In this document: in pieces, positions 26,924 through 35,695 of the stretch
How positions within the stretch are numbered: the first letter of the stretch is position 1
Layout of the letters: every line of letters starts with the position of its first letter
From: Caulobacter sp. UNC358MFTsu5.1
Lineage (GTDB): Bacteria; Pseudomonadota; Alphaproteobacteria; Caulobacterales; Caulobacteraceae
Reading direction: 5' to 3'
Assembly: GCF_000712075.1 (NCBI RefSeq)
Contig: NZ_JONW01000006.1
Span: 124,001-188,000 of the forward strand
Length of the DNA: 64,000 bases
Translations under genes and position numbers: made by a program
Notes under the pieces: model-generated
Seen by the model: only the letters and a program-made list of their open reading frames with translations
Database searches by the model: none
Told to the model about the DNA's origin: nothing

Positions 26924-26949
26924 GGAACTTGTCGCCTCGGCTTTGCGTT
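26924..26949 (+). promoter_or_regulatory. SigT (EcfG) promoter of the DUF883 operon
   Basis: GGAAC at 26924-26928 and CGTT at 26946-26949 with a 17-base spacer match the general-stress sigma consensus exactly. The first start codon is 63 bp downstream. Confidence 0.85.
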
Positions 26950-30226: not shown

Positions 30227-30271
30227 GCGAAATTCCAGAAGGCGCGGCCGTGCGCGGGGAGGCCCGAAGGA

Positions 30272-30296
30272 AACGGCGGCGCTTGAGCGCGGTTCC
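30272..30296 (-). promoter_or_regulatory. SigT promoter of the lipid kinase operon
   Basis: Minus strand: GGAAC at 30296-30292, CGTT at 30275-30272, 16-base spacer, 46 bp before the lipid kinase start. Its -35 box is one base from that of the opposite promoter at 30298. Confidence 0.85.
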
Positions 30297-30297
30297 C

Positions 30298-30323
30298 GGA
30301 ACCGTTGTCGTGGCGAGGTCGTT
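30298..30323 (+). promoter_or_regulatory. SigT promoter of the glycine-zipper lipoprotein
   Basis: GGAAC at 30298-30302, CGTT at 30320-30323, 17-base spacer, 36 bp before the ATG. Together with the divergent promoter the two -35 boxes form GTTCCCGGAAC, back to back. Confidence 0.85.
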
Positions 30324-30784: not shown

Positions 30785-31249
30785 ATGAAGAAAGTCGGAT
30801 TGGCGATTGTCGGCGTGGCGGTGCTGGGGGTCCTGGCGACGGGATGCGCGAGCAAAAGCCCGTGGCCCAAGTCGAGGTCCCAGATCGTGCAGACGGCGCC
30901 GAGCTGCGAGGACTTCTCGGTCCAGATCTATTTCGAGAGCAAGTCGGCCAAGCTGACCAACGAGGCGCGCTCGGTGCTCAAGGGAGCCGACGCCCTGGCC
31001 ACGGGCTGCAAGGTGGCTTCGGTGCGGGTGATCGGCCTGGCCGACGCCGTGGGCTCGCCGGACGCCAGCCTGGCGGTGTCCAAGCAGCGGGCCGACATCG
31101 TGACGCGGGCCCTGGCGAAGATGGGCTACGGGAACGTGGAGTTCGACGTCGGCGCGGCTGGAGACGCCGGCGCCACCACCAGCGACGGCGAGGCCCGTCC
31201 CCTGCGGCGACGCGCCGACATCCGGTTCGATCTCGACGGCAAGCTGTAA
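30785..31249 (+). CDS. OmpA-family peptidoglycan-associated lipoprotein
   Basis: 154 residues with a lipobox (VLATGC) after a hydrophobic signal sequence. Residues 40-154 form an OmpA-like domain (FSVQIYFESKSAKLTNEARSVL; then VRVIGLADAVGSPDASLAVSKQRADIV; ending RRRADIRF), which binds diaminopimelate in peptidoglycan. The usual second Asp/Arg pair is recognisable. It probably links the outer membrane to the wall. AGAGAGGG serves as ribosome binding site. No SigT promoter is seen directly upstream; a terminator separates it from the preceding lipoprotein. Confidence 0.88.
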   Translation: MKKVGLAIVGVAVLGVLATGCASKSPWPKSRSQIVQTAPSCEDFSVQIYFESKSAKLTNEARSVLKGADALATGCKVASVRVIGLADAVGSPDASLAVSKQRADIVTRALAKMGYGNVEFDVGAAGDAGATTSDGEARPLRRRADIRFDLDGKL

Positions 31250-31287: not shown

Positions 31288-31396
31288 AAAAAAGGCGGAT
31301 CCGAAAGGGTCCGCCCGAAGGGCAAAGAGGGGGTGCGGAGGCGACAGGCTGGCTTTCACCAGCCTCAAGTCGGGGGGGCGTCGCCGCCTCCGCAAA
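31288..31396 (-). ncRNA. gsrN: Stress-induced small RNA, probable GsrN homologue
   Basis: A roughly 108-nt minus-strand transcript is predicted from an exact SigT promoter (31402-31426) to a Rho-independent terminator whose six-U tail maps to 31293-31288. The 5' half folds into a long stem (GCGGAGGC with GCCTCCGC) enclosing a loop with seven consecutive C residues and a small inner hairpin (GGCTGG with CCAGCC). The 3' part is C-rich, then the terminator stem. The C-rich 5' loop, SigT control and setting beside phyR match what is known of GsrN, the Caulobacter general-stress sRNA that pairs with katG mRNA. Identity is inferred from architecture; no alignment was possible. No protein is encoded in this 324-bp gap. 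Confidence 0.75.
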
Positions 31397-31401
31397 TCGA
31401 A

Positions 31402-31426
31402 AACGTGGCTCCCCCGACCGGGTTCC
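31402..31426 (-). promoter_or_regulatory. SigT promoter of the small RNA
   Basis: Minus strand: GGAAC at 31426-31422, CGTT at 31405-31402, 16-base spacer. No minus-strand reading frame follows; a terminator does, about 110 bases on. Confidence 0.85.
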
Positions 31427-31504: not shown

Positions 31505-31529
31505 GGAACGTCGCCAGGGACGGGACGTT
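31505..31529 (+). promoter_or_regulatory. SigT promoter of two small membrane proteins
   Basis: GGAAC at 31505-31509, CGTT at 31526-31529, 16-base spacer, 45 bp before the GTG start at 31574. Confidence 0.85.
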
Positions 31530-31573: not shown

Positions 31574-31783
31574 GTGATCCGCACCTATCAGACCGAACAC
31601 GGTGGACTGGCCTTCGAAAGCACGCTGACGCGCAAGCAGAAGGTCCGGCGCAACCGCGTGGCGGCCCTGGCGGTGATCGCCGCGGTGGCGGCCTCGGCGG
31701 CGCTTCTCCAGCGCTTCAACGACAACCTCGCTCCCAGCGGACCGGCGGCGCCGGACGTCGGGACCTATTCCGCCGCCCGCTAA
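31574..31783 (+). CDS. Small single-pass membrane protein (unknown)
   Basis: 69 residues from a GTG with GGGGAG 7 bases upstream. A charged N-terminus (about 1-28, STLTRKQKVRRNRVA) is followed by one hydrophobic helix (LAVIAAVAASAALLQRF) and a short Pro/Ala tail. Orientation by the positive-inside rule puts the tail in the periplasm. No family recognised. Driven by an exact SigT promoter, it is a candidate uncharacterised general-stress membrane protein. Confidence 0.8.
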   Translation: MIRTYQTEHGGLAFESTLTRKQKVRRNRVAALAVIAAVAASAALLQRFNDNLAPSGPAAPDVGTYSAAR

Positions 31784-32130: not shown

Positions 32131-32931
32131 TCAGGCGGCCTTCTGGGTCCGGCGCGGATGGAAGAACAGCGCCTGGCCGATCGCCGCCTTCACCGTTTCC
32201 GGCTGGAAGGGCTTGGTGATCAGGAAGGTCGGTTCCGGACGCTCGCCGGTCAGCAGGCGCTCGGGGAAGGCGGTGATGAAGATCACCGGCACGTCCAGGC
32301 GGGCCAGGATGTCCTTGACCGCGTCGATTCCCGACGAGCCGTCGGCCAGCTGGATGTCGGCCAGCACCAGGCCGGGCGTGCGGCGGGACACGGCGTCGAC
32401 CGCCTCGCCGCGGGTGGCGGCAATGTCGATCACGTCATGGCCCAGTTCGCGGACCAGGGCCTCGATGTCGGCCGCGATCACCGGTTCGTCCTCGATGATC
32501 AGGACTTCGGTGGCCAGTTCGGCGTCGATCTCGCTCTGGGCCTCGGCGATCAGGCGCTCGACCTCGGCGAAGTCGCAGTCGAGAATCTGCGAGGCCTCGG
32601 TCGGGGTGAAGCCTTCCAGGGCGGTCAGCAGGAACGCCTGGCGGGACCGCGGGGCGATCCGCATCAGGCGCTGCGAGGCGTCGTCGGCGGCGTTGGACTG
32701 GTCGTCGCGCCGCGCTTCCAGCTGGGCGCCCGAGGACAGCCAGATGGCGTGGAAGACGCGATACAGGGCGACGCGCGGCGACAGGTTGGCGTCCAGCGAC
32801 CGCTCGCCGGCCGCCAGGGCCTCGAGCGCGACGCGGACATAGTGGTCGCCGGTCGTCTGATCGCCGGTCAGGGCGCGCGCGTAGCGACGAACGTAAGGCA
32901 GGTGCGGCGCCAGCCGGGCAAGAAGACTCAT
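32131..32931 (-). CDS. phyR: General stress response anti-anti-sigma regulator PhyR
   Basis: 266 residues. Residues 1-135 are the sigma-factor mimic (RYARALTGDQTTGDHYVRVALEALA, then RSRQAFLLTALEGFTPTEASQILD), and residues 141-266 a receiver domain (EVLIIEDEPVIAADIE). The phospho-acceptor is D192 in LVLADIQLADG, with the switch residue in VIFITAFP and the conserved Lys in FLITKPF. When phosphorylated by PhyK, the mimic domain binds NepR and frees SigT. It is divergent from nepR-sigT and has its own exact SigT promoter (33012-33036), giving positive feedback. Confidence 0.97.
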   Translation of the reverse strand: MSLLARLAPHLPYVRRYARALTGDQTTGDHYVRVALEALAAGERSLDANLSPRVALYRVFHAIWLSSGAQLEARRDDQSNAADDASQRLMRIAPRSRQAFLLTALEGFTPTEASQILDCDFAEVERLIAEAQSEIDAELATEVLIIEDEPVIAADIEALVRELGHDVIDIAATRGEAVDAVSRRTPGLVLADIQLADGSSGIDAVKDILARLDVPVIFITAFPERLLTGERPEPTFLITKPFQPETVKAAIGQALFFHPRRTQKAA

Positions 32932-33011
32932 GACCCCTCCCGTGTGAGTGTCTTCGGGTACAAAAAAGCCGGGGGTGCGGTAAAGCTACGCCGTTCGGCC
33001 ATCCGAACATA

Positions 33012-33036
33012 AACGCAACCCCCAGGCCCCGGTTCC
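33012..33036 (-). promoter_or_regulatory. SigT promoter of phyR
   Basis: Minus strand: GGAAC at 33036-33032, CGTT at 33015-33012, 16-base spacer, 81 bp before the phyR start. Confidence 0.88.
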
Positions 33037-33087
33037 ATGACAGGTTCCGAAGTCCGAAGAATTTTGCCATCATATGCTCAAGCTTGT

Positions 33088-33112
33088 GGAACCCCATACG
33101 GAATCCGACGTT
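33088..33112 (+). promoter_or_regulatory. SigT promoter of nepR-sigT-phyK
   Basis: GGAAC at 33088-33092, CGTT at 33109-33112, 16-base spacer. It rules out the longer nepR reading frame that starts upstream of it at 33084. Confidence 0.88.
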
Positions 33113-33176
33113 GTCATCCGGCGTACACTCATTCGGCCAAAGGGGGCGGGCGCCGCGTCTTGTCGGCGTCGAGGAC

Positions 33177-33362
33177 ATGATCGAACACGTACCCATGGAA
33201 GATCACCGCAAAGGGGCGGCCGCGCTGGACGAAGCGCGGCTCCGTCAGCAGGCTATCGGCGTCAAGCTTCGTCAGATGTTCGACGAGGTGGTGAACGAGC
33301 CGGTCCCCGACGAGTTTCTGGACATCCTGCGCAAGGCCGAGACGCCTTCGGGAGAGCGGTGA
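33177..33362 (+). CDS. nepR: Anti-sigma factor NepR
   Basis: 61 residues. NepR binds and silences SigT until sequestered by phosphorylated PhyR. The conserved core is visible: IGVKLRQMFDEVVNEPVPDEFLDILRKAE, the two-helix segment of the family. The start is uncertain between 33177 (GAGG very close) and 33195 (MEDHRK); the frame is open further upstream, but that part contains the promoter. It lies 2 bp before sigT, so anti-sigma and sigma factor are made together. Confidence 0.9.
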   Translation: MIEHVPMEDHRKGAAALDEARLRQQAIGVKLRQMFDEVVNEPVPDEFLDILRKAETPSGER

Positions 33363-33364
33363 GC

Positions 33365-33970
33365 ATGAGCGAAGCGCAAGTCGGCCGCTCGCCTTTCGAC
33401 CCGGCCCGCGACGGGACCTTCAAGAAGGAGCTCGTCACGCTCATCCCGCATCTGCGGGCCTTCGCCAGGACCCTGACGGGCGATCCCACCGCCGCCGACG
33501 ATCTGGCGCAGGACGCCATGATGAAGGCCTGGGACGCCCGCGCCAGCTTCCAGCTGGGCACCAACATGAAGGCGTGGACCTTCATGATCCTGCGCAACCA
33601 GTTCTATTCCGAGAAGCGCCGCTCCTGGCGCCAGAGCCAGCTCGACCAGGAAGCCGCCGAACGCACCCTGGTGGCGGTCGACGATCCCGAGGCGCCGGTG
33701 GCGCTGGACGAGCTGCGGCTCAGCCTGGCCATGCTGCCGCCCGAACAGCGGGAAGCTCTGATCCTGGTCGGGGCCGGCGGCTTCGCCTACGAGGAGGCGG
33801 CCGAGATCTGCGGCTGCGCCGTGGGCACGGTGAAGAGCCGGGTCAGCCGCGCGCGGCGCGCCCTGCAGGCCATTCTCGAGGCCGGCGCCTATGACCGCGA
33901 CGGCGCCGCCGCCGGCGACGCCATGTACGCCATCCTGGCCGACGCGGAGAGACTGAGCACCCTGCGGTGA
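33365..33970 (+). CDS. sigT: General stress ECF sigma factor SigT (EcfG)
   Basis: 201 residues of the EcfG class. Sigma region 2 spans about 20-95 ([34 protein letters not shown], then [17 protein letters not shown]). Region 4 spans about 120-175 ([47 protein letters not shown]). It directs polymerase to GGAAC/CGTT promoters, eight of which lie within 9 kb of this gene. ATG 33365 is preferred because GGGAGAG is 8 bases upstream; an in-frame GTG at 33359 is too close to that site. It overlaps phyK by GTGA. Confidence 0.97.
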
Positions 33971-35679
33971 AGTCTCTTCTCGGGCGAGGGGCCGGGGCGG
34001 TCGGGTCCATTCGGGTCCGACTGGCCGGCGCGCTGTTCCTCGCGCTCTTGCCCGTCCTGATCCTGGGCGTCCTGCAATCGGTGTTCGCCTTCAAGGCCGA
34101 GGCCGACTCGCGTCGCCAGAGCCTGGAGCTGGCGGCCGGGCGCAGCGCCGCCATCGCCCGGGCCCGCATTGAGGCCGCCGGTGTCCTGCTCCAGACCCTG
34201 GGGCCGGGCTCGGTCGGGCTGGAATGCGCCCAGCGGCTGGACACGGTGAAGGAGCGCCTGCCGGGCTACGCCAACCTGATCCGGTTCGACGCCTACGGCC
34301 GGGTGTCCTGCGCCGCCGGCACCACGCCGCCCGATCCCACCCGCGCCAGCCGCCGCTGGTTCCAGCGCCTGGCCGCCGGATCGCACATGGTCGTGGCCAG
34401 CATCCCCGGCGTCGACTACGCGGACGAGCCCGCCGTGCTGACGGCGGTGCGGGCCGAGACGCGCGACGGCCGCTTCGACGGCGCCATGTCCGCCGTCCTG
34501 ACCCTGTCGACGATCCAGCCCGAGACCGCCAACCGCTACCTGCCGGGCGGGGCCGAGGTGGCCCTGGCCGATTCCGAGGGCCATGTCTTCGCCGCCACCA
34601 ACCGGCGGGCGTTCGGCACGCCGACCATGGCCTGGCGGGAGCAGGCCGTGAAGAGCGGCTCGGCCCTGTGGTCCGGCCGCGACGCCGACGGCCGGCCGCG
34701 CGACTTCTCGGCCGCGCCCCTGGTCGGCCAGGAGGTGTTCGTCATCCTGTCGGCCAAGGCCCCGGGAATCGCCTCCTGGGCCTGGCTGAACCCGATGCTG
34801 CGCCTGCTGGCCCCGCTGCTGGCGTTCGTCCTGGCCCTGGCGGCCGTGCTCTACGCCACCGAGCAGGCGGTGATCCGCTGGATCGTCTATCTGCGCCGGG
34901 TCGCGGCCATCTACGCCCGCGGCCGCTTCACCGTGCGCCCCCTGCAGGCCGAGCGCGCGCCGCCCGAGATCCGCGAGCTGGCCGCCACCCTCGACGACAT
35001 GGCCGCCGGCATCGTCGCCCGCGACGCCTCGCTGCGCGACAGCCTGGGCGAGAAGGACGCGCTGATGCGCGAGATCCATCACCGGGTGAAGAACAACCTC
35101 CAGATCATCTCCAGCCTGCTGAACATGCAGCAGCGGGCCCTGACCGACCCCGCCGCCCGCACGGCCCTGAACGACACCCGCCAGCGCATCACCGCCCTGG
35201 CCCAGATCTACCGGGCGCTCTACCAGGGGCCCGACCTCAAGCGGGTGGACCTGCGCCCGTTCCTGGAGGAGCTGACGGCCCTGCTGCTGGCCGGCGACAT
35301 GTCGACCGGCGGTCCGATCCGCACCGAGGTCCACGCCGACCCCCTGGTCATCGACCCCGACCGGCTGGCGCCCCTGGCCCTGTTCGCGGTCGAGGCCATC
35401 ACCAACGCCCAGAAGCACGCCCTGGCCGAGCGGGGCGGCACCCTGACGGTCGACTTCTTCGTGCGCGGGGAAGAGGCCGAGCTGGCCATCGGCGACGACG
35501 GTCCCGGCGCGCCCAAGGGGCCGGTCGAGGGGGTGGGTCGAACCCTGATGACGGCCTTCGCCCGCCAGTTGCGCGGCAAGCTGCTGTTCGAGACCTCGGC
35601 CGCCGGCGGATTGCTGGTGCGCCTTGTGTTCCCAACGCCCGAAGCCCCGTCGGCCGAGCCCGCGACGGCCGGAACCTAG
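33967..35679 (+). CDS. phyK: Sensor histidine kinase PhyK
   Basis: 570 residues. An N-terminal membrane helix (about 20-40, [19 protein letters not shown]), a periplasmic sensor region (about 45-275), and a second helix (about 278-298, [18 protein letters not shown]) lead to a HAMP-like linker. A HisKA_2 core follows with phospho-His H372 in [24 protein letters not shown] and an HATPase domain ([20 protein letters not shown]). It phosphorylates PhyR in response to envelope-sensed stress. The GTG start overlaps the sigT stop. Its last two codons also supply the -35 box of the entericidin promoter. Confidence 0.95.
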
Positions 35680-35695
35680 CTGGGCCGCCAACGTT
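35671..35695 (+). promoter_or_regulatory. SigT promoter of the entericidin-like gene
   Basis: GGAAC at 35671-35675 (inside the end of phyK), CGTT at 35692-35695, 16-base spacer, 53 bp before the ATG. Confidence 0.88.

Follow-up and report, generated by a model that had tools for sequence, protein, structure and literature searches.

A gap of 324 bp without a gene lies within the window, the 64,000-nucleotide stretch of Caulobacter sp. UNC358MFTsu5.1 DNA analysed here, between an OmpA-like gene (30785-31249, plus strand) and the next plus-strand gene, whose GTG start at 31574 is a gene call made in the present analysis. The minus strand of this gap carries a small RNA gene that is probably gsrN, and the genes of the general stress response lie beside it. 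The features are as follows.

31288-31391, minus strand: probable GsrN small RNA gene, 104 nt, with predicted start and end (RF01529 match, fold, alignment with 27 other homologs)
31372-31378, minus strand: C7 tract in the 5' loop, RNA nt 14-20 (sequence, fold)
31337-31391, minus strand: 5' domain with closing stem nt 1-9/47-55, C-rich loop and inner hairpin nt 27-34/39-46 (fold, covariation)
31288-31316, minus strand: intrinsic terminator hairpin and T6 tail, the latter at 31293-31288 (helix 3 covaries)
31401-31426, minus strand: SigT/EcfG-type promoter GGAAC-N16-CGTTT, with GGAAC at 31426-31422 and CGTTT at 31405-31401 (exact sequence)
26924-26949, 30298-30323, 31505-31529, 33088-33112 and 35671-35695, plus strand: looser SigT-like promoters
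30272-30296, 31402-31426 and 33012-33036, minus strand: looser SigT-like promoters
32131-32931, minus strand: phyR, general stress response regulator (Pfam PhyR_sigma2 3.5e-23, PhyR_sigma-like 2.2e-21)
33084-33362, plus strand: nepR, anti-sigma factor (Pfam NepR 2.4e-15), start uncertain
33359-33970, plus strand: ecfG/sigT-type sigma factor gene (Sigma70_r2 4.6e-16, Sigma70_r4_2 6.7e-17, PhyR_sigma2 1.6e-11), start uncertain

An initial annotation made from the letters alone had described the gene-free gap, an exact minus-strand SigT promoter, a downstream terminator with a U6 tail and a 5' stem exposing seven C residues, and each of these is borne out by the coordinates above.

A predicted folded small RNA beside the stress-response genes

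The predicted RNA has a minimum free energy of -46.4 kcal/mol (z -3.3), and none of 200 shuffled sequences was as stable. Its closing stem encloses a predicted loop that is largely open and presents CCCCCCC; the minimum-energy structure places a helix of two pairs across the C tract, and the centroid structure is without that helix. A simple terminator scan listed no terminator for this gene, presumably because its loop limit of 8 excludes a stem with an internal mismatch, and the stem with its T6 tail is visible in both sequence and fold.

Support for the fold comes from 28 aligned homologs, comprising the window RNA and 27 others picked from 51 fetched loci, all aligned by sequence alone. 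The structure tested was the window's own fold minus its two weak helices; 96.1% of cells are paired across the alignment, and both sides have changed in 14 of 26 pairs (62 such cells), values that none of 500 shuffles reached, while the number of further pair types was reached by one shuffle in 500. Sliding the structure along the alignment lowered pairing to 28–49%, a comparison in which the tested structure has an advantage, being taken from the window's fold. Covarying pairs are concentrated in the inner hairpin (6/8) and the terminator (7/9), with 1/9 in the closing stem, which is nearly invariant and paired in every cell. The C tract and the GAC that follows it are invariant in all 28 homologs.

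Loop length was read more widely by motif. Among 115 homologs the loop holds six C residues in 5, seven in 33 and eight in 77, counts in which some genomes are represented by near-duplicates and many eight-C loci were chosen by the search pattern itself. These 115 derive from 124 sequences, from which L011, L018, L049 and L062 were dropped and L093, L094, L099, L101 and L102 were left out for want of the motif as written. In 108 of the 115, as judged by a simple motif, the 3' linker contains a GAUGA- or UUGAUG-type segment; the window RNA (linker 31288-31337, minus strand) is without a GAUGAU-type segment, as are six others including L100, L147 and L158.

The sequence of genes leading away from the RNA is phyR, whose end lies 740 bp upstream, then nepR, then the ecfG-type sigma factor gene. 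This matches the arrangement typical of Caulobacteraceae, in which gsrN genes lie near ecfG/nepR/phyR, with C. crescentus as the exception, as set out in the available text of the original GsrN study (eLife 2018, PMC5869019). Relatives have gsrN in the same locus order as here, and PhyR was found within the 1.5-kb flanks at 43 of the 51 loci examined, all from best-scoring matches; at the remaining eight it may be located a little outside the flank.

The exact promoter GGAAC-N16-CGTTT occurs nine times in the whole 5.4-Mb genome, against none for a reversed control, and three of the nine fall within one 3-kb part of the window: one at gsrN (31401-31426), one (30271-30296) preceding a diacylglycerol-kinase-like gene and one (33011-33036) preceding phyR. 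Eight copies of the looser form GGAAC-N15-18-CGTT lie in the window, where 1.5 would be expected, and none of 100 shuffles reached eight. Six of these eight form three divergent pairs, and all eight lie around genes in or next to the stress cluster (glycine-zipper, diacylglycerol-kinase-like, phyR and nepR genes). GGAAC is found at a similar spacing upstream of many gsrN homologs. At Phenylobacterium-type loci (L003-L007, L009, L020, L063) GGAAC is kept, with a -10 element of TGTT, GGTT or AGTT rather than CGTT. By analogy with C. crescentus, the window gene would be transcribed in a SigT-dependent manner.

The position of the RNA between two plus-strand genes, together with the second SigT-like promoter at 31505-31529 that is oriented toward the next of them, could be read as an antisense or leader RNA of those genes that merely resembles a small RNA. 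We consider this very improbable, given that the minus strand has its own promoter and terminator, its own Rfam match and a covarying fold.

Probable identity with GsrN

The covariance model RF01529 (CC3552) matches positions 31391-31294 of the minus strand with 78.7 bits against a gathering threshold of 50, covering model positions 1-106 (E = 7e-11 in the window, 1.4e-12 in the genome). A plus-strand match of the same model (22.4 bits against 50) and a Hammerhead_HH9 match (19.7 bits against 52) fall below threshold and were taken as chance. With stricter filters, under which some weak matches were lost, RF01529 was found in 58 of the 61 genus genomes sampled (absent from G202, G204 and G216), including 48 of 49 of good quality, and in 125 of 199 genomes sampled from the wider family, 119 of them above the cut-off. 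Among 14 control genomes, a match was present in Caulobacter vibrioides only.

The window's genome, whose completeness is given as 100, contains a single RF01529 match. A gsrN elsewhere in the genome, set beforehand as the finding that would tell against this identity, is accordingly not what was found. In another genus of the family, four genomes (G078, G151, G155, G159) have a second, weaker match elsewhere in the genome, of 35–37 bits and under the cut-off, which is possibly a GsrN paralog. These second matches also lend some colour to the idea that the window RNA is itself a paralogous C-rich small RNA distinct from GsrN, an idea we regard as scarcely credible since this genome has one match only and its locus is ordered as around gsrN in relatives.

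The RNA described in C. crescentus as GsrN (ccna_R0081) is SigT-dependent and about 100 nt long, carries six tandem C residues in a 5' loop that pairs with katG, and is cleaved to a short stable 5' isoform of 51–54 nt; its BLASTn homologs are limited to Caulobacteraceae (Caulobacter, Brevundimonas, Phenylobacterium), all according to the available text of PMC5869019. A section heading there has the full-length RNA stabilised by Hfq, and the part of PMC11005374 available states that an Hfq function for GsrN activity was not observed.

Our literature search found no paper tying the name CC3552 to GsrN. The Rfam family and ccna_R0081 presumably both stem from one 2008 survey. The link was tested through the 50 target-site strings of Table 1 of PMC5869019, as given in the available text. 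Perfect Watson-Crick complements of these strings number 11 for the window RNA and 17 for a six-C homolog (L075, from the C. crescentus-like genome G130); when the window RNA was shuffled 500 times, the count averaged 1.7 (sd 2.0) and peaked at 11, so that at least one shuffle equals the observed count. With G-U pairs allowed the matches rise to 24 and 35, figures without a shuffle control. GACGCCCCCCGACUU, whose complement is spelled by Table 1 strings such as AAGUCGGGGGGCG and GUCGGGGGGCGUC, is exact in G130 and G077 and recurs in the window with one additional C. The letters of published target sites are the complement of the window's loop, which links the Rfam record to GsrN.

Taken together, we consider it highly probable (about 0.9) that 31288-31391 on the minus strand is the gsrN gene of this species, transcribed by SigT, with a C7 loop that pairs with G-rich mRNA sites. 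The initial annotation had proposed the same identity, and the full-model RF01529 match of 78.7 bits at a phyR-nepR-ecfG locus upholds it.

The published C. crescentus exception can be viewed from G130 (L171, L172), where PhyR (267.9 kb) and gsrN (352.0 kb) are separated by about 83 kb. This genome is colinear with the window on both sides of the gap (32–40 kb of the window corresponding to 262–269 kb, and 22–31 kb to 352–360 kb), which suggests that the exception may be due to a block of roughly 83 kb interposed between the two genes rather than to a move of gsrN alone. In G077, phyR and gsrN are on different contigs.

The katG leader and other loop complements

The initial annotation had also suggested looking for a G-rich complement of the loop in the katG leader, and the outcome was mixed: such a complement did not rise above chance in the window's own genome, while a complementary core was found in most C. 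crescentus-type leaders of the genus. The window's genome has one katG. The longest loop complement in its leader is 6 nt, a length reached by 69% of shuffles, and a TCGGG near -43 lies inside a predicted hairpin. The leader sequence departs from the C. crescentus type, with an GAACAATC element soon followed by CCGGGGG; the leader of G206 likewise has GGGGGGC at -69.

A katG match is present in 46 of 61 genus genomes, and the leaders compared (n = 30) were drawn from the 30 best-scoring genus matches plus the window's own genome, with L127 left out at a contig end. A GTCGG/TCGGG/CGGGG core at -52 to -30 occurs in 15 of 20 C. crescentus-type leaders and in none of 10 others, an interval that was chosen after inspecting the leaders, which makes the test post hoc, and a comparison among related species whose leaders are not independent. 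Shuffling the 20 leaders 500 times gave a mean of 1.9 cores and a largest value of 6, and the split is unchanged whether leaders are classed by N-terminus or by GAACAATC. The 15 include the window's own genome (L104) and L138, in which TCGGG stands in a UUCG hairpin context (judged by eye for L138); without the window-type leaders L104, L138 and L140 the core is found in 13 of 17. Over the whole 110-nt leader the mean complement run is 6.0 against 5.4 in shuffles, as calculated before a change of start in L132, and this weak effect indicates that the signal resides in position. The G077 leader carries GTCGGGG, identical in sequence to the published C. crescentus site.

These leaders bear on what the RNA regulates here. 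It is conceivable, if somewhat unlikely, that this GsrN ortholog acts mainly on other mRNAs and that its katG link has been lost or has shifted to the CGGGGG tract at about -69: the absence of an above-chance complement in the own leader, its departure from the C. crescentus type with CCGGGGG soon after GAACAATC, and the similar G tract of G206 all point that way. Against this stand the invariance of the C tract and the following GAC in the 28 aligned homologs and the core in 15 of 20 leaders of the type (the own hairpin site counted), from which we infer that the GsrN-katG link is probably old. Activation of katG by GsrN in the window's species is plausible. A broader proposal, that selection keeps the pairing genus-wide in one constant position of the leader and that the window's lineage has been rewired, with a changed katG leader whose G tract has moved upstream and with the GsrN linker segment lost, we consider doubtful; if true, the target sets of one RNA would differ between sister species.

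Avoidance of the loop complement across the genome was considered separately. AAGTCGGGGGG is found only at gsrN in the window's genome, G130 and G077. The 10-mer AAGTCGGGGG is not generally rarer than a reversed control across 61 genus genomes, as judged by eye from the table, and the avoidance idea was therefore dropped. Its counts reach 126 in G188 (66 forward, 60 reverse) against 12 for the control, and 45 in G116 against 10. Four of the 126 G188 places were read (L176-L179), and these belong to a dispersed repeat with inverted-repeat ends, in which the perfect 10-nt complement of the GsrN loop is probably a coincidence.

Proposed function and comparison with known systems

In the general stress response, stress activates PhyR, which draws NepR off the EcfG/SigT sigma factor. 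At this locus, SigT released in this way would use the promoter at 31426-31401 to transcribe gsrN; the RNA's 5' half would then fold so that its stem presents the C7 loop, and pairing of this loop with G-rich mRNA sites would change the translation or stability of the targets. That the window RNA is transcribed, is cut to a short 5' form and pairs with targets is in each case posited here by analogy with C. crescentus. The analysis adds an annotated gsrN to the window's genome, lends the katG link comparative support, with 15 of the 20 leaders of the C. crescentus type sharing a loop-complement core in one constant position, and suggests from one C. crescentus-like genome how the published C. 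crescentus exception may be understood.

The window gsrN is an ordinary ortholog of an already described stress-activated small RNA. Like C. crescentus GsrN it has a C-rich 5' loop, a length of about 100 nt, an intrinsic terminator and a SigT promoter, and its loop, GACG-C(n)-GACUUGA, complements published target sites. It differs in having seven C residues where the paper reports six, a predicted length of 104 nt where the paper numbers positions up to 106, a 3' linker that lacks the GAUGAU-type segment, and a gene that adjoins phyR, whereas the C. crescentus gene is distal. The match to Rfam RF01529 is full-length, yet the window RNA lacks one C position and seven linker positions of the model. 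The GsrN-like RNAs of Rhizobiaceae, which the available text of PMC5869019 proposes mainly from expression, position and promoter rather than from similarity to Caulobacter GsrN, are likened to the window RNA by description: they too lie near a stress-response locus, with an upstream sigma-EcfG site and an exposed loop at the 5' end.
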